Below are positions 12,982 to 28,397 of a DNA stretch of 36,039 bases, in pieces (the first letter of the stretch is position 1; each line of letters begins with the position of its first letter). The DNA is from Magnetococcales bacterium. Its GTDB lineage: Bacteria; Pseudomonadota; Magnetococcia; Magnetococcales; Magnetaquicoccaceae. The translations under genes were made by a program, and so were the position numbers. The DNA is taken from assembly GCA_015232825.1 (NCBI GenBank), contig JADFYY010000011.1, positions 1 through 36,039 of the forward strand, in the 5' to 3' direction. Below the pieces are notes generated by a model that was given only the letters and a program-made list of their open reading frames with translations, did not search any database and was not told the origin of the DNA.

Positions 12982-15849
12982 CTAGTTGGCGTCCAACACA
13001 AACCTGCGCCGGATATAGAGCGCGTCCCCCCACGATGCGTGCCAGGGACAGGTGAGTGCGACACGGATAAAGCCTTGTTCTTCGAGAAAATCATCCATTT
13101 CATCAATCTGCGCACATCCCGTATACAGCTCTTCAAAATTGACTTCTACATTGATGGCCTCGATGTGACGCAATTGTTCGCAAGCCCCGCGTAGTGCCGC
13201 CAGTTCGGCACCTTGGATATCCAGCGAGAGAATCGTATAGTGGGTCGGATCCAAATGAAATTCAGCCATTAGGTCATCCAGAGGGGATGTTTCCACCTCT
13301 ACGCTCCCCACCTCGACAATAGATGGGTAATGGGTGTTGTGTCGGGCTGGGGGCAAAATGGAACTGCTCATGTCCGCAGACATCAAATGCAATGACGTAA
13401 CTCCTGCGCGATCCGATACGGCCCGCAAGATGGTGAAGAGGTCTGGTTGTTGGCCGACCGTGGCGACCAGCCGGGTATATACGGCTGGATTGGCTTCGAT
13501 GAAGACAATGGGTGAGATCCCCATGGCCCGGTAGGTGGCCAGTTCACCCCCTTCATGGGCACCAATATGAATGACCCCCTTGGGAACAATGGCATGCCGT
13601 TTCAATTCGGCGGCAAGATCGATCATGGTTTTGGAATGGTTGAACAAGAGCGGTATCAAACGCCCATGAATGGCCAGACAAAGATCCCCGGTATCCGGTT
13701 CTGTCCCGGTTGATAGATCAATCAAGTTGTTGTTTTTAATTGAAAATAAATAATACCCTTTGCCTGTAAGAAAAGGACGCAGTTTTGGAAATCCCTCTGG
13801 CGTGGCAATCATGGCGATGGTGTCGATTCGGGCGTGTTTGAACAGACGCGCACTCCCTTTCAGTAGATCAAAGGGGTCTTCTTCGGCCCCTAGATGGAGC
13901 AGATTGATATGGGATATTCCTTTGGTTCGATAAAAATGGTCCACATCTGTCAGTGAGCGTGAAAGGGTGTGAATGGTATGGTCTGCATTGGCCTTGAGAA
14001 CCGCGCGGGTCCAGATCACGGAACAGTCGCCAAGATGACAGATAACGGCTTTTTGATGCAGAAAATGGTCAATCAGCCACTGCTCCGAGGCTGATATGGA
14101 TTTCGGTTTGTCTAATAAATTCAATAAAATATCGTTGTTCCACGGGTCAAAGGGAAAGAGACCTCCCGAAGCAAAATCAGGACAAAAGCAACGTACCTTT
14201 GGCGAATAAGCAAGCATGCAGGCCATCATGGAAAAGGTGCTGATCGATATGGCGATGAGATCGGCGTGACGCAACATCTCAAAATCGATTAAGTATTCGG
14301 CCCCCTTGATGGGAGTTGGTGCAATCAGGGTATCGCTGACAGGGTGAAACCGGGCAAAAGCCGTTACCAAGGATGGGTCATCGCTGGCCACGTACAGGAT
14401 GGGATGGTTCAAACTCTCCCAGATGGTGTCTAGCCATGCGAGATACCATTCCGCAGGTGCGATCCGAAACTGTCCATAGCCGTAATCACCGCGACGCAGA
14501 TGGAGCGCGACCAGTGTGGCCCCAGGCACAGAAGTTTGACGCAACCGCCTTAAGGCATCCTCAATGGTGGGGGCCACCCGTTGGCTGAGAGTAAAGCTGG
14601 ATTGCCAAAGGGAACGATAAGGGGCTAATGTCGCTGTGTGACCAATGAAATATCCAAAGATATCCACGTTCACCAAAGGTTCAACCGCTTTTGGTTCCAA
14701 CAGGGCGAACCAATCAACCGCTTTCTCGTCAATGGAACGGCACTCTCGTGATGGCAAAGGATCATCCAAATCAAACAGGTAACGACCAATCCAGATTGGG
14801 GTTTGCACTTCTAGGTTATGTCGGGCGGCATAGCAACGCATGAAACCATACTGAAAAAGTTGGTTGGCAAACCGTCCATAGATGCCCAGTCTTGTGGAGG
14901 TGATGCAATGGCGGTTCATGTCTGGGGAGCGAGGTGGTGGCGGTTCGCCCCAGGCCAGTCGCATCCCTAATAGGCCGTGACGTGTGAACGCTTCCGCACT
15001 GCCCTCATTGAGCTGCATCGCCCGCTTCCAAGATTGCATGGCCATGAGCGGTTGTTGCGTGTTTTCAAACTCTTGGGCAGCGTGTACCGCCGCATTAAAG
15101 GCGTTGGCAATGCCTGAATGGTGGGCCATGGTGAGCGCGTCGGCTAGTTCCGTGTTGCCTGCATCCAAAAGGTTTTGTCTGGTTGTGTCAAAAACCTGTT
15201 TGTCAAGTGTGCCGCTATGGGCTTGCGAGAAGATGGCCGTTAAAATGGAGATCACCCCTTCTGTGTGGAACTCTTGGGTGTTGCGTGCAATATAATGGCT
15301 GTTGGTAAAACTTTCACAGGAGTCCTGATAGTCGGGAATGGGAAGCAGACCGTGGGGGGTGATGCGGTAAAGGAGAAAGCCATGCTGGGTCAACAGAAAA
15401 TATAAATCATGAAAAAAAGTGCGTGTATGGATACTGGTATTGGAAAATTTAAATTGAATCACACGGGTTTTGGCGAGTGCATCGCCAAATCCTTTTAATA
15501 CCGTCCATTCGTCTTCTTTGAGATCGATTTTGACGATGTCAATGTGGCGTTCTGCCAGTTCTTGTCGCCAATAATCGGCAAAGGGTCGTTTCTTGAAGTT
15601 AACCTCGGTGGGTTCAAAAATGTGAATCTCTATGTTGGGGAATTTTTGGCGCAACGGGTGCGCATGGAGCCCAGCCGTCTCCCCAATCGCAATGGCCAGC
15701 ATTGGCGTGACATCGAGTTGACTGGTGAGTATGTCTACCTCTTGTTCAATGTTTTCTGTTTGATATCCTTTGCCAAGTGCGTGGGCAATATTGGTTGCCA
15801 GATTGCTCAACAGATGGCTCAACTCTATGGGGAATAGCCCTTTATCCAT
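12982..15849 (-). CDS. Multi-module FkbM methyltransferase-like / GT11 fucosyltransferase-like protein
   Basis: The product has 955 residues and at least four modules. Module 1 (about 1-190) resembles the C-terminal half of FkbM methyltransferases (IDIVKIDLKEDEWTVLKGF, RVIQFKFSNTSIHTRTFF, YRITPHGLLPIPDY). Its SAM-binding half looks shortened. A helical TPR-like stretch follows (about 220-310). Module 2 (about 315-590) is GT11 alpha-1,2-fucosyltransferase-like: GRFANQLFQYGFMRCYA, the GDP-fucose motif HLRRGDYGYGQF, and ADLIAISISTFSMMACML. Module 3 (about 600-730) is another shortened FkbM-like segment (INLLHLGAEEDPFDLLKGS). Module 4 (about 750-955) is a complete FkbM domain: GVIHIGAHEGGELATYRAMG, VFIEANP, ILSLDIQGAELAALRGA. 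AAGGA precedes the ATG. It is the last gene of the glycosylation operon, 36 bases after the GT41 gene. Probable role: fucosyl transfer and O-methylation of a surface glycan. Confidence 0.82.
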   Translation of the reverse strand: MDKGLFPIELSHLLSNLATNIAHALGKGYQTENIEQEVDILTSQLDVTPMLAIAIGETAGLHAHPLRQKFPNIEIHIFEPTEVNFKKRPFADYWRQELAERHIDIVKIDLKEDEWTVLKGFGDALAKTRVIQFKFSNTSIHTRTFFHDLYFLLTQHGFLLYRITPHGLLPIPDYQDSCESFTNSHYIARNTQEFHTEGVISILTAIFSQAHSGTLDKQVFDTTRQNLLDAGNTELADALTMAHHSGIANAFNAAVHAAQEFENTQQPLMAMQSWKRAMQLNEGSAEAFTRHGLLGMRLAWGEPPPPRSPDMNRHCITSTRLGIYGRFANQLFQYGFMRCYAARHNLEVQTPIWIGRYLFDLDDPLPSRECRSIDEKAVDWFALLEPKAVEPLVNVDIFGYFIGHTATLAPYRSLWQSSFTLSQRVAPTIEDALRRLRQTSVPGATLVALHLRRGDYGYGQFRIAPAEWYLAWLDTIWESLNHPILYVASDDPSLVTAFARFHPVSDTLIAPTPIKGAEYLIDFEMLRHADLIAISISTFSMMACMLAYSPKVRCFCPDFASGGLFPFDPWNNDILLNLLDKPKSISASEQWLIDHFLHQKAVICHLGDCSVIWTRAVLKANADHTIHTLSRSLTDVDHFYRTKGISHINLLHLGAEEDPFDLLKGSARLFKHARIDTIAMIATPEGFPKLRPFLTGKGYYLFSIKNNNLIDLSTGTEPDTGDLCLAIHGRLIPLLFNHSKTMIDLAAELKRHAIVPKGVIHIGAHEGGELATYRAMGISPIVFIEANPAVYTRLVATVGQQPDLFTILRAVSDRAGVTSLHLMSADMSSSILPPARHNTHYPSIVEVGSVEVETSPLDDLMAEFHLDPTHYTILSLDIQGAELAALRGACEQLRHIEAINVEVNFEELYTGCAQIDEMDDFLEEQGFIRVALTCPWHASWGDALYIRRRFVLDAN

Positions 15850-15885: not shown

Positions 15886-17799
15886 TCAAGACCACAACCG
15901 ACCATCTCCAGGCATGTATCGCAACCGGTTTTTCTCACTCAACTGTTTTGTGTAGGCCGCAACCAGTTCGTCCACGCTTTTACACCAAACCCCCTCCTGA
16001 TCCAACTCAATGCCGATTTCTTGATAATTTTCAAGGTTGAATAAATTGGGTCGTGGCACCCGATTTTGCCGAAAATCCTCCCGCAATTGTTCAAACAATC
16101 CCTCCAGATGTTTGGCTAAACCCGGCATGTCAAACAATCGGCACGTTTCACGTCCAGCTTGCAAACGCTGACGAAAGCCCTGCAATAACGCCCGATTGGT
16201 GGCAAGTTCCACAGCACGGGCCTCGAACTCTTCAGGAGAGTGACAAACCAGTTCCGCCAAACCAGCCGAACTGACCAGACTGCCGCAAACCCGTGACGCA
16301 AAGCTGAGTCCAGATAAGGTTAAGATCGGCACACCCATCCACAAGGCATCCGAGGCCGTGGTGTGGGCACCATACGGAAAAGAGTCCAATACCAAATCCG
16401 CCAATGGATAACGGGCCAGATGGTCCCAATTCGCAATCATGGGTGCGAAAACCAAACGATGAGAGCCAATCCCCTGTGCCGTGGCCAACTCAAGCAATCG
16501 ATTCCGCGCCGTATCGTTTTCATACAGCAACCACATCACGCTCTCTGGCACTCGATGGAGAATGCGACACCAAATCTCCCAAGTGAACGCCGTGATCTTG
16601 CGCACCCCATTGAAACAACAGAATACCATAGATTCCTCTGGCAAGCCAACGTCTCGTCGAGAGGGACGATGGGAGGAGATTGCACGCCGACGATCATTGG
16701 GCTGATAGCAGGGGAGTCGCAACACCCGTTCCGAATAGAAAATTTCATACCCTTCTGGCACAATAAATCCATCGGCAATGAGGTACTGATGGTACGGGCT
16801 GGCCATGGTCCCTGGATATCCGAGCCAATTGACAATGACCGGTGCAGGACGCATGGCGAGCATTTTCAACCGGGCCGTGTGGGTGTATCCGTTTACATCC
16901 ACTAAAATCTCAATTTGGTCAGCCACAATCCGTGCGGCGGCTTCTTCGTCTGGCAAAAAGGCCAAATCGCACCAATGCTCCGCCACTGCCCGGATTCGAT
17001 GATGAATCGGATCATCGACTGGCTGGCCTGTATAATAAAAAAACAGCTCCACTCGTTCACGGTCGTGCAGTTCAAACAGATCGACCATCAACAGACCAAT
17101 GGCATGCATGCGCAAGTCGGAAGAGAGATACCCAACCCGTGGACGGCGGGTGGCCTGGAGGTGTCGTAACGGCTCATGGGTATCTAGAAAGGTCTTGGAG
17201 GGTTGCTTGAATTCTGTTTTGTTGTACATGCGGGCATTGGCCAGTTGCAACAGTGGGTCATCGCTGTAGGCCGCCAAAGAGAGCGGGGCAAAACCGGTCA
17301 TTAACTGTTTTTTGGGACAGTTGGTAAATGGGGCGATAACCGGCCATTGGCACTGCTGCTGGCGGGAACTGATCCAATGCTCCATCACGTCGTGCTGTCG
17401 GGGAAGTAGCTCTAAACTCTGTTGCAAGGCCGCCTCAACGCGGGTGGCATCCGCAACACGGCCAATTTGTTTGAGTGCGGAGTTTTTGTAATTCAAGTTG
17501 TCTGGGGTGAGTTGCCCCAGTCGCTCTACCAGTTGTCGCCAACAGGCAACCGCCTCATCCTTAGCCCCCAACTGCTCTAGGATACCGCCTAAATTAATCC
17601 TGGCGGCATGAAAATCAGGATGCAGTCGCAGAGCCTCGCTGTAGGCGTGTCGTGCTGCAGGCCAATCTGGAATGGAGCTGAGGGCAACCCCAAGATTATA
17701 CCAAACCAGTTGTTCGTAAGGGTGGCCAACATTGTGCGCCAACCACTCCTGATAGATCTCAACCCTTTGTGGATGATCGGCGGTTAATTCAGGCACCAT
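15886..17799 (-). CDS. TPR-containing GT41 (SPINDLY / O-GlcNAc-transferase-like) glycosyltransferase, third copy
   Basis: The product has 637 residues. The ATG at 17799 lies two bases after the upstream stop, with GGAG 8 bases before it. Upstream in-frame codons would overlap the preceding gene. Two to three TPR-like repeats (about 20-110; YNLGVALSSIPDWPAARHAY) precede the GT41 catalytic domain. Visible motifs are VGYLSSDLRMHAIGLLMVDL with the histidine equivalent to human OGT His498, VDVNGYTHTARL, VNWLGYPGTMASPYHQYLIA, CFNGVRKITAFTW with the conserved catalytic lysine, and HTTASDALWMGVPIL with the HTT nucleotide-binding residues. It is homologous to both halves of the neighbour at 17802-22211. 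GT41 enzymes add a sugar to Ser/Thr of proteins; bacterial members often modify flagellins or surface proteins. The acceptor is unknown. Confidence 0.92.
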   Translation of the reverse strand: MVPELTADHPQRVEIYQEWLAHNVGHPYEQLVWYNLGVALSSIPDWPAARHAYSEALRLHPDFHAARINLGGILEQLGAKDEAVACWRQLVERLGQLTPDNLNYKNSALKQIGRVADATRVEAALQQSLELLPRQHDVMEHWISSRQQQCQWPVIAPFTNCPKKQLMTGFAPLSLAAYSDDPLLQLANARMYNKTEFKQPSKTFLDTHEPLRHLQATRRPRVGYLSSDLRMHAIGLLMVDLFELHDRERVELFFYYTGQPVDDPIHHRIRAVAEHWCDLAFLPDEEAAARIVADQIEILVDVNGYTHTARLKMLAMRPAPVIVNWLGYPGTMASPYHQYLIADGFIVPEGYEIFYSERVLRLPCYQPNDRRRAISSHRPSRRDVGLPEESMVFCCFNGVRKITAFTWEIWCRILHRVPESVMWLLYENDTARNRLLELATAQGIGSHRLVFAPMIANWDHLARYPLADLVLDSFPYGAHTTASDALWMGVPILTLSGLSFASRVCGSLVSSAGLAELVCHSPEEFEARAVELATNRALLQGFRQRLQAGRETCRLFDMPGLAKHLEGLFEQLREDFRQNRVPRPNLFNLENYQEIGIELDQEGVWCKSVDELVAAYTKQLSEKNRLRYMPGDGRLWS

Positions 17800-17801
17800 T
17801 C

Positions 17802-20800
17802 TTAAGGCTCCACAGAGTGCAATCGTTTCAATACCCGCTCTCGATGCTCGGAAGTAAACGATTCGTTTTGCAAAAGGGCGCGTGCTGGGGTAAGGATCCG
17901 TTCGTTCAACCAAGCCCGTTGCTCAAACGGCAATTGTGCGATCTGCGTGACAAGATTTTTGGCTCCCCTAGCCACTTCATCCCCATTGTTGAAAATGACC
18001 CCGCCAAGGCATAAGGCGATAGAGATTATGGCGTGACAATGGCCACCATTGGCAAGCAGCATGGCGACGATATAGGCCGAACGGACGCGACCAGTCGCGA
18101 GCAGTTCAGCAGTGGCAAAGATCTTCTCTTGCGGGTCATGTTGCGCCTGCTCAGTGAATTGCAGCAAAGGCTCCAATGCACCAGCCTCATCCAATTCCAG
18201 TAGGGTTGCCAAAAAGCCGTTTTTGCGGTAGGCATGGCGGCGGCGCATATCTTTGGACCACAACCGTCCATCTTCAGGGATGTGATTCAAGCGGTCGCGT
18301 TCGATCAGTTTTTCTAGATAGGCCTCAGACAAGCGGTCAATCGTTTCAAACCAGACACCATCTTGGTCGAGTTCAATGCCAATCTCTTGGTAGAGTTCAA
18401 GATTGGATAAATCCGGTCGCGGCACTTGGTTTTGCCAGAATGCCTCGCGCATTGCCAAAAACAGCCCCTCCAGACGGGCCACTAGGGCCGGGAGATCAAA
18501 CAAAACACAAGAGTGGCGATTGGCAATCAATCGTTGACGATAGGTCTGTAATAATGGACGGTTGAAGGCCAGCTCCACCGCACGGGCTACAAAAGTCTCT
18601 GGGGTGGTGCAGACCAGTTCTGGCAATCCAGCGGAGGTGACCAGACTGCCACACACCCGCGCAGGAAAGGAGAGTCCTGCCATCGTCAGGATCGGCACCC
18701 CCATCCAAAGGGCATCGGAGGCGGTGGTATGTGCCCCATAGGGGGTGGAGTCCAGCATCAAATCAGCCAAAGGATACCGGGCCAGATGGGCGGGATTGGG
18801 CAGTCGAGAGGAGAAAATCACCCGCTCAGGCGCGATTCCATTGGCGGCGGCCATTTCATGTAAACGTTTTTTAATGGGGTCAAATTCGCAAAGCAGCCAC
18901 AACACACTGTTAGGCACCTGTTGTAGAATCTGCATCCAGAGGTGCCAAGTAAAGGCCGTGATTTTTTTGGGTTCGTTGAAACAACTGTAGACCATTACCC
19001 CTTCTGGCAATCCGGCCTCCAATCGAGTTGGCTGGCGCGGGTCTACCACACGTTGCCGGTCATTGGGCTGATAACAGGGCAGACGGACCACTCGTTCTGA
19101 ATAAAAAATCTCTAGTTCTTCCGGGATGATGAACCCATCGGCCAGGATATAATTGTGATAGGGACTCCCCATGCTCCCTGGATATCCAAGCCAATTGACA
19201 ATGACCGGCGCAGGACGCATCGCCAACAGCTTGGTGCGGGCACTATGGGTGTATCCATTGACATCGATCAGAATCTCGATGCGATCCTCGATGATCAATC
19301 GGGCGGCTTCGATATCCGTCAAGCCAGAGATCTCCCGCCATTGCTCCACTGCGGCCCTGGTTCTAAGCCGGATTGGGTCGTTGGACTCAACCCCAGTGGA
19401 GTAGGCGAAAATCTCGACTTGTTGACGATCATGCAGCTCAAAAAGTTCCGCCATCAGATAGCCGATGGCATGGAGCCGTAGGTCAGAAGAGAGGTACCCA
19501 ACCCTGGGACGAAGGGAAGGGGTGACGCGCAAGGCATGGTGGGTGGCGTGAAACGTCGGTTGCGGCTGACCGATCTCTGCTTGATGATATCGATGGGCAT
19601 TGGCCAATTGTAGCATGGGATCATCGGTATGAATCGCCAAAGACAATGGCGCAAAGCCCTTCATGATGCGCCTCCGGTCACACTGGGCAAAGGGCTCGAT
19701 GACCGGCCATTTGCACAATCCTTGTCGATTGACGATCCAATGCAGCAGGGATTCGGGCTGATGCGGGGTGATCTCTAGGCTTTGCCGCAAGGCCTCCTCG
19801 GCGGCCACTGGATCGCTCACACGGGCAATCTGTTGCAAGGCAGAGATTTTGAGTCCAATGGTTTCGCCCACGACTGCGGAGAGACGGTCAACCAGTTGTT
19901 GCCAACAGGCCACAGCCGCTTGAGTGGAAACCAGTCGTTCCAACACATTGCCTAGATTGATATAGGGAGGATAAAAATCGGGTTGCAAGCGAATCGCTTC
20001 GCTGAAAGCCTGCTTCGCCTCTGCCAGTGCATTGGAATTAAGCAGAAGAACACCATGATTATAATGAATATAATGGGCCTGGGGATGGGCCGGGTTGCTT
20101 GCCAGCCACTGTTGATATAACCGAATGGCCTGATCCATCTGGCCAGCCCCTGTCAGCACGTCCGCATGACCGATCAGATCTGCCAAATTTAAATTCATCG
20201 GTGAAAATCCTTGTTTGGTTTGGGTATGATGGCGACGAATATTCTCATTCCATAGACGCTTGTCTTCGATAAGGCCAGTCAAGCGGTCCCATTCGAGCAA
20301 TTTTTCCAGATAGGCTGAAGTCAGATTTTCTATTGTTCCAAACCAGACCCCTCCTTGGTCCAATTCAATGCCAATCTCTTGGTAAATGTCGAGGTTGGTA
20401 AGGTCGGGTCGTGGAATTCGGTTTTGCTGGAAATCGTTCCACATGGAAAAATACAATTTTTCCAAACAAGAGACCAGGGAAGGGGTGTCAAACAGAACGC
20501 AGGTATCTCGTCCATCGCGCAATCGTTGACGAACCGATTGCAACAGTGTCGGGTTTTTACCGAGTTCCACAGCACGGGCCACGAACGCTTCGCTTGTGGT
20601 ACAGACCAATTCCGCCAATCCAGCGGCCCGAACCAAACTGCCACAGACTCTCGACGCAAAGGAGAGTCCAGCATAAGTCAAAACAGGCACCCCCATCCAT
20701 AGGGCGTCTGAGGCGGTGGTATGGGCTCCATAGGGAGAGGAGTCCAGCATCAGGTCCACTAAGGCATAGCGGGCCATATGTTCTGCATTGTTTAAGCGAG

Positions 20801-22211
20801 GAGCAAACAGGATTCGTTCTGGTGCAACCCCCTGCAAGGCTGCCAGTTCGAGCAGACGCCCCTTGGCCACCTCGTTTTCAAACAGCAGCCACAAAACACT
20901 CTGGGGTACTTGTCGCAATATCTCCATCCAGAGGTGCCAAGTATAGGAGGTGATTTTTTTGACCCCGTTGAAACAGCCATAAACCATAACCGCCTCAGGG
21001 AGTCCAGATTCGCTTCGGGAGGGGTAATGGGGGGCAACAACGCGCTTTCGGTCGTTTGGTTGATAACAAGGTAAACGTACCACCTGTTCTGAATAAAAAA
21101 TTTCATGCCCTTTTGGGATGATGAATTCATCGGCAATGAGGTATTGATGATAGGGTGAGCCCATGGTTCCTGGATAGCCAAGCCAGTTGACAATGACCGG
21201 CGCGGGACGCATGGATAGCAGTTTGGTGCGGGAGCTATGGGTATAGCCATTCACATCAATGAGGATTTCGATGCGGTCTGCAAGAATCTGCGCAGCGGCT
21301 TCTGGGTCGGATAGGGTGGAGAGGTCTTGCCAATGTTCCACGGCATTGCGGATTCTTTGTCGGATCGGATCCTCGAATTGGGGGCCAATGGAGTAGACAA
21401 AAATCTCAACTTGTTGACGGTCATGGAGTTCAAAAAGTTCTACCATTAGATAACCGATGGCATGAATTCTTAAATCCGAGGAGAGATAACCGATCCTGGG
21501 GCGTGCGCCAGGGGTGGCGCGTAAGGGTTCATGGTGATCCAGAAAGGTTGGTTGCGGTTGACCAATCTCGGATTGATGAAAATAGCTGGCGTTGGCCAAC
21601 TGTAGCATTGGATCGTCGGTATAAACCGCCAGTGACAACGGGGCAAATCCTTTCATCAGGTCTCTTTTGTCGCACGAACCAAACGGTTCAATGACTGGCC
21701 ATTTGCACTGCAACTGACGGGCATTGATCCAATGCTCCATGGCTTCATGCTGATGGGGATTGATCTCTAAGCTGTGCTGCAAGGCGGTTTCGGCTTCTGC
21801 CATGCCAAGGACACGGGCAATTTGTTTTAAGGCAGAGGTCTTGTAGCCAATGGCTTCAGCATTCACCGAAGGCAATCGATCTGCAAGACGCTGCCAACAG
21901 GCGGCGGCCTCCATGGGGGAAACCACTCTCTCCAGCACATTCCCAAGATTGATATAGGGGGGATAAAAATCTGGATTCAATCGGATCGATTCCTCAAAAG
22001 CCGCTTTCGCTCCTGGAAGGTCGCTGATATTAAGCAATAAAATTCCATAATTATAATGAACAGCATAGGCAAGCGGCTGGGTTGAGTTGTGTGCCAGCCA
22101 CTGCCGGTACAGCTCAATGGCCACATCCGTCTGACCAGAATTCATCCGTTCACCAGCTTGAATGATCAGGTCCGTTAGACTTAATGCTTGAATTTCATTT
22201 AAATCTGGCAT
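17802..22211 (-). CDS. Double GT41 (SPINDLY / O-GlcNAc-transferase-like) protein with extra C-terminal helical domain
   Basis: The product has 1469 residues. The ATG at 22211 has AAGGAG 6 bases upstream; more upstream in-frame starts run into the divergent gene. Two complete TPR-GT41 modules lie in one chain: about 1-671 and 672-1320. Each has TPRs (YNYGILLLNISDLPGAKAAF; YNHGVLLLNSNALAEAKQAF), the histidine in GYLSSDLRIHAIGYLMVEL or its variant, NWLGYPG, the lysine in CFNGVKKIT or CFNEPKKIT, and HTTASDALWMGVP. Both modules therefore look active. The last 148 residues form an added helical domain of no recognised family. Module 2 begins with an internal ATG at 20198 that still has an AAGGA 9 bases upstream, so the protein probably arose by fusion of tandem duplicates. 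It is the first gene of the glycosylation operon. Confidence 0.92.
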   Translation of the reverse strand: MPDLNEIQALSLTDLIIQAGERMNSGQTDVAIELYRQWLAHNSTQPLAYAVHYNYGILLLNISDLPGAKAAFEESIRLNPDFYPPYINLGNVLERVVSPMEAAACWQRLADRLPSVNAEAIGYKTSALKQIARVLGMAEAETALQHSLEINPHQHEAMEHWINARQLQCKWPVIEPFGSCDKRDLMKGFAPLSLAVYTDDPMLQLANASYFHQSEIGQPQPTFLDHHEPLRATPGARPRIGYLSSDLRIHAIGYLMVELFELHDRQQVEIFVYSIGPQFEDPIRQRIRNAVEHWQDLSTLSDPEAAAQILADRIEILIDVNGYTHSSRTKLLSMRPAPVIVNWLGYPGTMGSPYHQYLIADEFIIPKGHEIFYSEQVVRLPCYQPNDRKRVVAPHYPSRSESGLPEAVMVYGCFNGVKKITSYTWHLWMEILRQVPQSVLWLLFENEVAKGRLLELAALQGVAPERILFAPRLNNAEHMARYALVDLMLDSSPYGAHTTASDALWMGVPVLTYAGLSFASRVCGSLVRAAGLAELVCTTSEAFVARAVELGKNPTLLQSVRQRLRDGRDTCVLFDTPSLVSCLEKLYFSMWNDFQQNRIPRPDLTNLDIYQEIGIELDQGGVWFGTIENLTSAYLEKLLEWDRLTGLIEDKRLWNENIRRHHTQTKQGFSPMNLNLADLIGHADVLTGAGQMDQAIRLYQQWLASNPAHPQAHYIHYNHGVLLLNSNALAEAKQAFSEAIRLQPDFYPPYINLGNVLERLVSTQAAVACWQQLVDRLSAVVGETIGLKISALQQIARVSDPVAAEEALRQSLEITPHQPESLLHWIVNRQGLCKWPVIEPFAQCDRRRIMKGFAPLSLAIHTDDPMLQLANAHRYHQAEIGQPQPTFHATHHALRVTPSLRPRVGYLSSDLRLHAIGYLMAELFELHDRQQVEIFAYSTGVESNDPIRLRTRAAVEQWREISGLTDIEAARLIIEDRIEILIDVNGYTHSARTKLLAMRPAPVIVNWLGYPGSMGSPYHNYILADGFIIPEELEIFYSERVVRLPCYQPNDRQRVVDPRQPTRLEAGLPEGVMVYSCFNEPKKITAFTWHLWMQILQQVPNSVLWLLCEFDPIKKRLHEMAAANGIAPERVIFSSRLPNPAHLARYPLADLMLDSTPYGAHTTASDALWMGVPILTMAGLSFPARVCGSLVTSAGLPELVCTTPETFVARAVELAFNRPLLQTYRQRLIANRHSCVLFDLPALVARLEGLFLAMREAFWQNQVPRPDLSNLELYQEIGIELDQDGVWFETIDRLSEAYLEKLIERDRLNHIPEDGRLWSKDMRRRHAYRKNGFLATLLELDEAGALEPLLQFTEQAQHDPQEKIFATAELLATGRVRSAYIVAMLLANGGHCHAIISIALCLGGVIFNNGDEVARGAKNLVTQIAQLPFEQRAWLNERILTPARALLQNESFTSEHRERVLKRLHSVEP
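20198..20212 (-). promoter_or_regulatory. Relict or active internal ribosome-binding site within the double GT41 gene
   Basis: On the minus strand AAGGA (20212-20208) precedes an in-frame ATG (20198-20196) by 9 bases, exactly where module 2 begins (MNLNLADLIGHADVL). It may still allow separate translation of the second GT41 module. Confidence 0.45.
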
Positions 22212-25240: not shown

Positions 25241-26104
25241 GTGCGCATCATGGAACTCCCGGAACAAATTTGTCGCTATCGTATCGATGGCATCCTGGGA
25301 CAAGGGGCAACGGGTATCGTCTATCAAGGATTTGATCCTAAAGAAGCACGCCCAGTGGCCATCAAGACCATTCCGTTCGCCCTATGGAATCAGGAAGCTG
25401 GACGTAACTTGGCAATCCGTCTGCGACGGGAAGCCTTGGTGGTCAAATCCCTCTCGCATGCCAATGTCACACTTGTCTACCTGACGGGAGAAGAAATGGG
25501 GGTTCCTTTTCTTGTCATGGAGTTGCATCATGGACAATCCCTCAAGGAACTGATTTTGACCGGGAGCAGACCATCCCGTATCCGTTGCATGGATATCATG
25601 CTGCAAACTTTGGCCGGACTGGGACATATTCATGCGCAAGGCATTGTTCATGGAGATATCAAACCCGCCAATATCATGCTTTTGATGAATGGTCAGGTCA
25701 AAATTACTGATTTTAGTGCCGCTCATTTTGTCAATGATCCCACACCCTCCATGAACAAAGTAACCGGAACCCATGGATATATGGCTCCTGAGCAACTCAT
25801 GGGACAACGAACCGATTTGCGGGCGGATCTTTTTGCTGCGGGCGTCATCCTCCATGTGTTGCTCACCGGGGTTAAACCTTTTGTCGGGAATGGGGCGCAA
25901 GCCATTACCCGTAATATTTTGACATCCATGCCGTCTGACCCCACATCTTTTGATGACTCCATCCCCGCGCCCTTTTATGCGGTTATAAAAAAGGCACTGG
26001 CCAAACAACCCCGTGATCGTTTCCAGAACGCTGAAACCTTCCAGGATGCCATCAAAATGGCGGATGAGAATCTCTATTCTCACCACACGGGACCGCACCT
26101 TTAA
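25241..26104 (+). CDS. Ser/Thr protein kinase (Hanks type), kinase domain only
   Basis: The product has about 287 residues. Kinase subdomains are clear: glycine-rich loop GILGQGATGIVYQGF (about 18-32), ATP-binding lysine in VAIKTI (about 43), hinge LVMELHHG, catalytic loop IVHGDIKPANIMLL with HGD replacing HRD, DFS in place of the metal-binding DFG (ITDFSAAHF), activation segment GTHGYMAPEQLMG and DLRADLFAAGVILHVLLTG. No transmembrane or sensor domain follows, so it is cytosolic. The start is uncertain: GTG at 25241 (AAGGA 4 bases upstream) or ATG at 25250 (13 bases). It follows the carbonic anhydrase gene and converges with the 684-residue protein, overlapping its stop over four bases (TTAA). 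The substrate is unknown; the neighbour is a candidate. Confidence 0.93.
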   Translation: MRIMELPEQICRYRIDGILGQGATGIVYQGFDPKEARPVAIKTIPFALWNQEAGRNLAIRLRREALVVKSLSHANVTLVYLTGEEMGVPFLVMELHHGQSLKELILTGSRPSRIRCMDIMLQTLAGLGHIHAQGIVHGDIKPANIMLLMNGQVKITDFSAAHFVNDPTPSMNKVTGTHGYMAPEQLMGQRTDLRADLFAAGVILHVLLTGVKPFVGNGAQAITRNILTSMPSDPTSFDDSIPAPFYAVIKKALAKQPRDRFQNAETFQDAIKMADENLYSHHTGPHL

Positions 26105-28155
26105 AGAAATTTTTCTGGTTCCTCCCCAGCAATGGTGCGGGCGGCAATGTGTTTCATGAGAGGTAACTCATGCAATGGACGTCCCCGATAGAGTTCTCGC
26201 GCTAGGATGGCAAAGTTGAAATCCATACCAACCAATTTTTTCTCTTTGGCAGATTGTTCTTGCAACCAAAAGGCGGTCCAGGCAAACCGTTCTGCCCAGG
26301 CCTCCCGATTGGGCTCACAAAACAGATCTAAAACGCGACGAATCAATGTCTCCTTGTTGCGAATGCGGTTGCTTTTTATGAAGGTGACAACTTCTTGGCT
26401 CTCTTCAAACCAAGAGTTTGTTATTAATGGGATTTCCCCCCAAACGCCACTGGTCTGAATGACCATTTTCAAGGTATTGAGATCATCGGTCATGGCCTGG
26501 TTCTCTTGGATCAGTCGCTCGACTAAAACGGTCGCATCAATCCGTTCTGGCATCCATGTGGTCGCGGCCATGGTCTCGGCCAGTTGCAATAAACCAACCA
26601 TCGGGGGATTGCCCTTTTCCAAACCTATGGCAATATGGTGTCTGACTGCGGCATGCATGTAATCTTGGGAGATATCTAGAAATAGCTCTTTTTGTCCAAC
26701 TTGACGAAGGGTTTGTGAGGCCTCTTGTTTGGAGATGGGTGGGGTGATCCATGCATCGGCAATGCCGACGTGTTGTTTTAATAAAATGGCCCCGATGCGG
26801 GATTTTCTCCCTTCCACGGCCATGGAAAACATCATGGATTGCGCCCCAACACCATCAATTTGTGACGATTGCAGGGCACTTAAAGCGGTTCCGGTTGACC
26901 ATTGGGCACATTCAACCCCCTTGATCCGGGCGGACTTGATCAGTGCGTCCAACAGTTTGCGATCTTTTCCCGGTAGCCAGTTGCGAATGACGATCAACCG
27001 TCGCAAAGCAGTCGGTGTCATGAATTGGGCATTTTTTTTCAACCATTGCAAAGCTTCTTGACGCACCGCCTCTTCGGTATTCAAGCATAACAGGACCACG
27101 GCGTCCTTCATGCCGGGAAGATTGGAGTAGGCAAACTCTCCGATCAGGGCAGATTGGGCCTCCAATGGCAAGGCGCGGGTCATTTGCGCCAAGGTCTCGC
27201 TGATGGCAAACGGATCCCCTCCATGCTCATCTACCAAGTTTTCAAACATGGCATCAATCTGCCCACGGGTTGGAACCTCCATGTGTGGGGCATAATGAGT
27301 GAGTTGATATTCATAAATATCCAGTAACTCCTGGATATATTCCAGCTTGGCTTCTGTGATGGATTCCAGGATGCCCATCAATAATTGCGGCGAGATGTTG
27401 TTGGCTTGCGTCTGTTTGACGACCATCAATTGGAATTCGTGGTTGAGTTCTTTGGCCCAATCGAAATGACGTTCGACACCAAAGCGAATGTTTTGCAAGG
27501 ATTGGGAAAGCAGCATGAAATAGGCACTCACCTCATAATCATTCGGGGAGTCGAGAGAGAACTGTTCCATTAAAAGTTGCAAGACATCAAATATTAAAAT
27601 GGGATATTTTTCATAACTTTGCATGGCTTCCCCAGAAATCATCGCGGGTCGCTCCTTGGCGATCTCTTTGGCGATTTGGGCGGCAAACAGGCGCAGTTCG
27701 CTTTGGACGTTTGCGGACTCTGGACCAAAGCGGTCTGTTACTGCTTTTTTACCACGGGGATTGTCGTTGATGGAGACACTCTTGAGGCTTCTCTCTTGCA
27801 CGCGATTCACGGCACGAGTTAACGTCATTCCGTTGTTGATCCGTCCAGTCTCTTCGAGATACCCGAAAAAGGCGACCAGTACGGGTGGCAGTGCTAAGAG
27901 AGTGGGCTCTTTCAGAAGGCCGCTCCTAGGGAGAGTCTCCAAGCAACAGCTCTCCACGGATTGGGCGGTCCATTTTTTTGGAATGCGTCCATGCTGACTG
28001 TACATCATTTTAACGAATAGGATAACAATTTGATTGCATTCTTTTTTTTGTTTATTTGTCAGGCCACCAAAGCGTTGGCTTCCGGCAAACTCCTGGAGCC
28101 ATGTCGCTGTCTGTTGTTGGAGAGACTCTAAATTTTTGTCCGCATACCCATCCAT
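26101..28155 (-). CDS. Large helical protein of unknown function, convergent with the kinase
   Basis: The product is 684 residues from the ATG at 28155, which has AAGGG about 10 bases upstream. Further upstream codons encode an unlikely N-terminus. No signal peptide or transmembrane segment is apparent. The sequence is rich in Leu, Ala, Gln and Glu and looks mostly alpha-helical. The stretch about residues 320-440 (ALIGEFAYSNLPGMKDAVVL, TEEAVRQEALQWLKKNAQF, RLIVIRNWLPGKDRKLLDAL) has a HEAT-repeat-like rhythm. No motif links it to a known enzyme. Its stop overlaps that of the Ser/Thr kinase on the other strand. It could be a scaffold or substrate linked to kinase signalling, but only proximity supports this. 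I do not recognise the family. Confidence 0.75.
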   Translation of the reverse strand: MDGYADKNLESLQQQTATWLQEFAGSQRFGGLTNKQKKECNQIVILFVKMMYSQHGRIPKKWTAQSVESCCLETLPRSGLLKEPTLLALPPVLVAFFGYLEETGRINNGMTLTRAVNRVQERSLKSVSINDNPRGKKAVTDRFGPESANVQSELRLFAAQIAKEIAKERPAMISGEAMQSYEKYPILIFDVLQLLMEQFSLDSPNDYEVSAYFMLLSQSLQNIRFGVERHFDWAKELNHEFQLMVVKQTQANNISPQLLMGILESITEAKLEYIQELLDIYEYQLTHYAPHMEVPTRGQIDAMFENLVDEHGGDPFAISETLAQMTRALPLEAQSALIGEFAYSNLPGMKDAVVLLCLNTEEAVRQEALQWLKKNAQFMTPTALRRLIVIRNWLPGKDRKLLDALIKSARIKGVECAQWSTGTALSALQSSQIDGVGAQSMMFSMAVEGRKSRIGAILLKQHVGIADAWITPPISKQEASQTLRQVGQKELFLDISQDYMHAAVRHHIAIGLEKGNPPMVGLLQLAETMAATTWMPERIDATVLVERLIQENQAMTDDLNTLKMVIQTSGVWGEIPLITNSWFEESQEVVTFIKSNRIRNKETLIRRVLDLFCEPNREAWAERFAWTAFWLQEQSAKEKKLVGMDFNFAILARELYRGRPLHELPLMKHIAARTIAGEEPEKFL

Positions 28156-28397
28156 GACCGCATCACCCTTTGATTGCTGAACTATAAGATCTTTCAAGTT
28201 TATCGTGTTTGGAACTGCTTGGAAATGGCTTCTTTTTTTGGATAGGCATCGAGACGAAATTTGTTGAAAAAAATAAGGTATAAAAATTGCAAACAAATGC
28301 TGAAGCCGTCGATTATGTCAGACAAAATTTTGGCATTTTCTCGTCTGGTGAGTCAATTCAAATTGTTTGGTTTTTTGATCACAACGGACCCTTGAGT

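Follow-up and report, generated by a model that had tools for sequence, protein, structure and literature searches.

The DNA examined here raises the question of whether two complete GT41 enzymes have been joined in a single working polypeptide and, if so, how the join arose and what it might be for. The window, by which is meant the whole stretch of 36,039 nucleotides that was analysed, comes from a Magnetococcales bacterium, a relative of the magnetotactic cocci, whose assembly is 77% complete and consists of 270 contigs. Enzymes of family GT41, among them OGT, XcOGT and SPY, are inverting glycosyltransferases that use a nucleotide sugar, with a TPR array aiding acceptor binding. The earlier note on this DNA, made from the sequence alone, had described two TPR-GT41 modules in one chain of 1469 residues with a third module as a separate gene behind it, and both descriptions were borne out, in that searches with Pfam and GT41 profiles gave two complete units for the long protein, and GT41 and TPR matches for the 637-aa open reading frame (ORF) that follows.

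The fusion gene occupies 17802..22211 on the minus strand, as do all features described below, and encodes two TPR-GT41 modules joined in frame. Module 1 comprises a TPR region with linker (residues 1-238; 21498..22211, placed by Pfam TPR matches and alignment), a GT41 catalytic region (residues 239-600; 20412..21497) and a tail that carries the fusion junction and the remnant of a C-terminal domain (residues 641-671; 20199..20291, placed by alignment). Module 2 has a TPR region (residues 672-902; 19506..20198), supported by Pfam and by helices in the predicted model, a GT41 catalytic region (residues 903-1264; 18420..19505) and a C-terminal domain (residues 1313-1469 plus the stop codon; 17802..18275). 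The ATG at 22211 has AAGGAG in front of it, making an alternative longer frame up to 22475 less likely. The third TPR-GT41 module (15886..17799, 637 aa) starts 2 nt past the stop of the fusion gene, so that its translation is probably coupled to that gene, and a 955-aa gene (12982..15849) beginning 36 nt beyond it is possibly part of the same transcription unit. The product of this last gene appears to be another multi-enzyme chain, with an FkbM methyltransferase match in its C-terminal part, a weaker FkbM match in its N-terminal part and a GT11-like match below the Pfam cut-off in the middle. Elsewhere in the window (26101-28296), a 731-aa protein with no Pfam match has relatives in the same-genus loci L011, L012, L013 and L043, and its gene adjoins a gene judged by eye to be Ser/Thr kinase-like, both in the window and in L011-L013.

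Family membership was clear for both proteins. Pfam profile PF13844 matched the 1469-aa protein at 5.7e-147 (490.7 bits) and the 637-aa protein at 4.8e-75 (253.3 bits), against a curated cut-off of 25, with GT41 in four stretches (two units) plus TPR in the former and GT41 plus TPR in the latter; two further profiles, one derived from the three modules and the other broader in scope, each gave two full GT41 units plus one. The cut-off of 1000 bits for the HMW1C/NGT N-glucosyltransferases (NCBIfam NF049992) was missed by both, at 34.3 and 19.1 bits respectively. A FlmG-type layout, with an N-terminal TPR domain and a C-terminal GT-B domain, is present according to Pfam and the predicted model. 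The solved relatives identified by sequence were XcOGT, human and fly OGT, TtOGT and SPY, and the fold predicted for module 2 is a GT-B fold like that of OGT. An AlphaFold model of residues 672-1469, built from a 17-row alignment, had a mean pLDDT of 86.5 and a pTM of 0.73 and aligned in VIA-align with XcOGT (2jlb) at Z 40.2 and an rmsd of 2.2 over 449 residues, followed by TtOGT (Z 34.4), SPY (33.9), human OGT (about 32) and an N-glucosyltransferase (25.3).

In alignment with XcOGT and fly OGT, equivalents of His558, Lys842, His901, Arg904, His920-Thr921-Thr922 and Asp925 are kept in all three modules. These equivalents are given in human OGT numbering, and their placement rests in part on the residue roles set out in PMC3660302. 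The earlier claim that the catalytic His, Lys and HTT residues persist throughout therefore stands, with H250, K419 and H497-T498-T499 (and D502) in module 1, H914, K1083 and H1161-T1162-T1163 (and D1166) in module 2, and H232, K401 and H479-T480-T481 (and D484) in module 3; loss of the named residues, which was looked for in a closer alignment, was seen in none of the three modules.

Other positions of the OGT active site differ. In the same alignment Thr560 is replaced by Ile and Lys898 by Asn, Gln839 is absent (Gly, Glu and Gly in modules 1, 2 and 3) and Tyr841 is likewise absent (Lys, Lys and Arg). Tyr841 of the acetamide pocket and the phosphate contact Gln839, both expected of a UDP-GlcNAc:protein O-GlcNAc transferase, are missing from all window modules. 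PMC3660302 describes Tyr841 as helping to line the acetamide pocket of OGT, and because this residue is Lys, Lys and Arg here, the donor of the window modules may not be simply UDP-GlcNAc. The substitution extends across the subfamily: an equivalent of Tyr841 was found in none of the 17 other Magnetococcales subfamily units (Lys in eight, Arg in five, Gln in four) and in none of the seven from loci outside Magnetococcales (Gln in five, His in two), against 39 of the 56 OGT-type units in the fetched loci. Four loci that duplicate others (L031, L033, L038 and L058, copies of L013, L012, L011 and L014) were left out of this alignment and of the 27-unit tree described below.

Module 2 shows a further peculiarity, an unusual Glu-Pro (E1080-P1081) in its phosphate loop, a place occupied in the other subfamily units by Gly, Ser or Ala and then by one of Val, Ala, Ser, Thr, Met and Leu. 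An acidic residue at the Gln839 position occurs in module 2 only (0/17 and 0/7 among the two groups of subfamily units and 0/56 among OGT-type units), and this Glu might weaken module 2 or alter it. One reading of these differences is that module 1 is the sole active unit and that module 2 is a regulatory or scaffolding pseudoenzyme which supplies the C-terminal domain, a domain that only module 2 has kept among the three modules of the window. This is considered distinctly unlikely, since, the E1080-P1081 substitution aside, module 2 retains K1083, H914, the HTT motif and D1166 together with 91 of 93 otherwise invariant columns. The two departures refer to columns that do not vary among the 26 remaining subfamily units, and within Magnetococcales there are four departures in 134 invariant columns; in this comparison a masked stretch in L011_10393 inflates that unit's own departure count. 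With 91 of the 93 columns kept, the idea that module 2 is a decayed copy was likewise not supported. Hints of the processive or hetero-specific protein glycosylation that the earlier note had suggested are confined to two: the paralogs have diverged, and the phosphate loop of module 2 has changed from Gly-Val to Glu-Pro.

The fusion itself could in principle be an assembly or sequencing artefact that joined two adjacent genes: the genes are separate in relatives, the junction is known from a single fragmented assembly, and a Shine-Dalgarno-like site still stands before Met672. This explanation is nevertheless very improbable. DNA identity is 68.6% between modules 1 and 2, 63.2% between modules 1 and 3 and 63.3% between modules 2 and 3, so that the DNA of every pair differs by more than 30%, and the 150-nt stretches that flank the fusion point have at most a 6-nt word in common. 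Further, the frame passes through a remnant that resembles the domain retained by module 2, and other assemblies from the class also contain GT41 ORFs with chained units. A collapsed repeat, named in the earlier note among the findings that would undo the claim, was ruled out by this 63-69% identity and the absence of homology at the junction. At the comparison of modules, module 2 is 69 and 60% identical to modules 1 and 3, while modules 1 and 2 differ at 27.1, 18.5 and 49.4% of first, second and third codon positions, and purifying selection on the modules is visible at this sequence level. The site before Met672 is an AAGGA (20208..20212) lying 9 nt ahead of the ATG at 20198, within the preceding 14 nt, and is a consensus match only, with a spacing equal to that before the 955-aa gene; module 2 may therefore also be made alone, by internal initiation at Met672.

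The origin of the fusion was approached through its relatives. Searching with the protein gave 11 named loci, of which the four from Magnetococcales assemblies were the closest. Orthologs are adjacent separate genes in the same-genus loci L011, L012, L013 and L032 and carry a C-terminal domain of about 150 residues. The domain belonging to the second L011 gene is in a different frame, with masked sequence intervening; a module 3-type gene of 694 aa from the same genus (L034) gave no match to this domain. Module 1 lacks the domain save for its remnant, and module 3 lacks the C-terminal domain of most orthologs and has an N-terminus shortened relative to theirs, the start of the TPR region being gone. 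The tree of the three modules that had been proposed as a check was built with 27 units, and it placed module 3 with the second genes of the ortholog pairs (support 100/99) and modules 1 and 2 with the first genes (98/97), L013 having a separate duplication of its own. The distance between modules 1 and 2 is about 0.6 changes per site, as great as that to other species of the genus. In a larger quick tree the partner of module 2 is a G014 gene and not module 1 (SH-aLRT 91). A recent tandem duplication giving rise to modules 1 and 2 was ruled out on these two grounds. Of the C-terminal domain, module 1 retains only the initial residues, after which it continues straight into Met672, a natural start of module 2, and the simplest account would be that an in-frame deletion joined two paralogs and removed most of the module 1 C-terminal domain. 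The same fusion was not found in any relative examined. Tandem arrays of GT41 genes were observed elsewhere in the genus, with GT41 ORFs lying side by side on a single strand: six of them, holding seven GT41 units, in L049 (G014:C133) and three in L050 (G008:C92).

The C-terminal domain retained by module 2 has no Pfam or NCBIfam match. Modelled alone from eight rows (pLDDT 83.4, pTM 0.78), it is predicted to be all helical, with no Foldseek match under an E value of 0.001, and its best VIA match is the TPR protein MamA (Z 9.0, rmsd 3.8 over 100 residues). On this model the domain would be weakly TPR-like, although the match to MamA may reflect a mere common helical arrangement. The same helical domain of about 150 aa recurs at GT41 C-termini and also in proteins of different types encoded nearby in the same loci, with occurrences in the window (17802-18275) and at L012:12961-15627, L032:9182-11932, L053:12139-13629, L056:1727-3223, L051:2441-3961, L055:12806-13999 and L090:4910-6223. 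Given its presence in neighbours of other kinds, a role in docking the enzymes of one glycan pathway to each other is a fair guess.

The earlier note had called two active sites in one chain unusual, and this holds in part. Within the class it does not: GT41 matches were present in all 18 family genomes, in 47 of 48 class genomes and in 66 of 150 genomes of a phylum sample that includes class members, and in the fetched regions 16 of 98 GT41 ORFs contained between two and four complete units each, together 41 of the 123 units. These regions represent 28 of the 48 class genomes plus L015-L021 and were picked non-randomly, from the top-scoring matches listed and in some cases for their long frames, so 16 of 98 cannot be taken as an unbiased rate. 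The count took in the window, L014-L021 and L031-L090 without L058, with L031, L033 and L038 representing L013, L012 and L011; L022-L030 are short pieces around matches. Three of the 16 multi-unit ORFs are cut by the end of a contig (L051, L071 and L072). Multi-unit ORFs were present in at least 12 genomes (G000, G001-G007, G014, G027, G032 and G035), a lower bound given how the regions were chosen, and in all seven genomes (G001-G007) of the sister genus g2. The largest chain, in L056, has four units in 3767 aa, while that of L014, from G006, has three in 2509 aa. Outside the class the description may still apply, since no frame with two sets of GT41 matches was seen there among the rows listed for the 150-genome sample, and none of the eight GT41 ORFs of L015-L021, from outside Magnetococcales, was multiple.

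In a tree of the 123 units, the label ‘multi’ requires 15 changes, at least 12 of them on well-supported branches, a count that lumps gains with losses and treats the units of one ORF separately. All that this count shows is that chaining originated on more than one occasion. The first two units of the g2 chains belong to another subfamily than that of the window, and the window pair is separate from them; the third unit of L014, L052 and L054 does belong to the window's subfamily. Several of the long multi-GT41 proteins (L053, L051, L055, L056, L057, L059 and L064) have a common C-terminal part extending some 530-1080 aa past the last unit. No paper on chained GT41 enzymes was found, judging by the titles listed, in the open-access library searched, which does not show absence from print, and nothing relevant to donor specificity was found there among the matches listed. 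What a specialist would find new is the altered donor pocket and the chaining of GT41 units across the class.

The reading preferred here, with a probability of roughly 0.55, is that the window encodes two paralogous cytoplasmic GT41 protein glycosyltransferases covalently joined through an in-frame deletion, with a third paralog directly behind; its activity, protein acceptor, cytoplasmic site, deletion and effect of joining are what we infer. The locus would be a cytoplasmic OGT/SPINDLY-like (GT41) glycosyltransferase system, in which the anciently duplicated paralogs were joined by loss in frame of most of the module 1 C-terminal domain and the third paralog would be translated directly downstream of the fused pair. 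The short TPR array of each module would hold the acceptor, and each module would transfer a sugar, probably not simply from UDP-GlcNAc, from a nucleotide sugar by the inverting GT41 mechanism, with the Lys842 equivalent handling the phosphates and the equivalents of His558, HTT and Asp925 also used. The fusion would fix two active sites at 1:1 on one molecule, as a covalent version of the dimers of OGT and SPY. According to PMC10027727, OGT and SPY are dimers of chains that each bear a single catalytic unit, and disruption of the SPY dimer lowers activity; the covalent pair may therefore be viewed as a natural variation on this arrangement.

The genomic neighbourhood admits a different acceptor, in that the modules, instead of glycosylating proteins, might be the glycosyltransferases of a locus for surface polysaccharide or glycolipid. 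Orthologs lie near RmlA-, RmlB- and RmlD-type genes in L013 and L014 (names read from Pfam matches), an RmlC-type gene is about 7 kb away in L011, methyltransferases are found near orthologs, and the next gene in the window is the one that combines FkbM with weak GT11-like parts. The best-matching solved family members, however, are protein glycosyltransferases with TPR-like arrays, FlmG is a TPR-GT-B enzyme described as acting on flagellin in PMC7591256, and dTDP-sugars can also feed protein glycans. The polysaccharide or glycolipid role is considered rather unlikely.

A narrower proposal, that the system is a flagellin glycosyltransferase equivalent to FlmG and working with nonulosonic acid, takes its appeal from the shared TPR-GT architecture, from flagellin matches in 18 of 18 family genomes and NeuB matches in 17 of 18, the source genome included, and from four sister-genus contigs (G001:C379, G002:C141, G003:C17 and G004:C92), each carrying a multi-GT41 ORF, on which a NeuB match lies some 6-13 kb from the GT41 matches of that ORF. 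It is nonetheless judged quite improbable. The units on those four contigs mostly belong to another subfamily than the window's, the NeuB matches of the source genome are on C41 and C191, away from GT41, and among the listed matches flagellin and GT41 share a contig only in the case of G012:C4, at a distance of about 85 kb. The contig of the window has no flagellin match, although the assemblies are fragmented and such linkage is therefore uninformative. There are also other candidates for the role, namely a Maf/MptE-like match (16 of 18 genomes) and GT41 proteins of about 600 aa. The NeuB linkage in g2 hints that some of the chained enzymes there use nonulosonic acids; it adds no weight for the window because those chains are mostly of another subfamily.

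On the preferred reading of joined protein glycosyltransferases, the genus shows both states, separate genes and a fused gene, and a clade with chained units and unfused same-genus orthologs makes the effect of joining on acceptor choice, order and processivity a question that can be asked. The change of Tyr841 to Lys, Arg, Gln or His marks a subfamily with a possibly different donor sugar, which bears on the naming of bacterial GT41 proteins. A broader and rather doubtful extension is that the Magnetococcia repeatedly built GT41 assembly lines of two to four units for multi-sugar or multi-site protein patterns, some with an altered donor pocket, with the window representing a stage of two paralogs.

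Compared with known systems, module 2 is closest in predicted fold to XcOGT (XCC0866; PDB 2jlb), at 34% identity, and the window modules share with it a helical repeat region, the absence in the alignment of an insert between the two catalytic halves, and the phosphate-site Lys and HTT. XcOGT is, however, a single module of 568 residues without the C-terminal helical domain, and it retains the Tyr that is Lys or Arg in the window modules, though it too lacks Gln839 (Asn). Human and fly OGT share the TPR-GT41 arrangement and the equivalents of His558, Lys842, His901, Arg904, His920-Thr-Thr and Asp925, but have one catalytic unit and extra residues between the catalytic halves, whereas the window modules are without Gln839, Tyr841, Lys898 and Thr560. 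Arabidopsis SPINDLY also combines TPR with GT41 in one unit per chain; it is dimeric and uses GDP-fucose in the account of PMC10027727, so GT41 donors do vary. Caulobacter FlmG, compared by its description in PMC7591256, resembles the window modules in having an N-terminal TPR acceptor-binding domain and a C-terminal GT-B domain, but is a protein of 596 aa with one unit that transfers pseudaminic acid to flagellin. The multi-GT41 ORFs of the class, such as those of L014 and L056, have several units per chain as in the window, but those of L014, L052 and L054 combine units from different subfamilies, whereas the window joins two close paralogs. The dual-module Kdo transferase KpsC, as described in PMC10148158, likewise places two glycosyltransferase modules in one polypeptide, but belongs to another glycosyltransferase family and serves another acceptor, in capsule biosynthesis.
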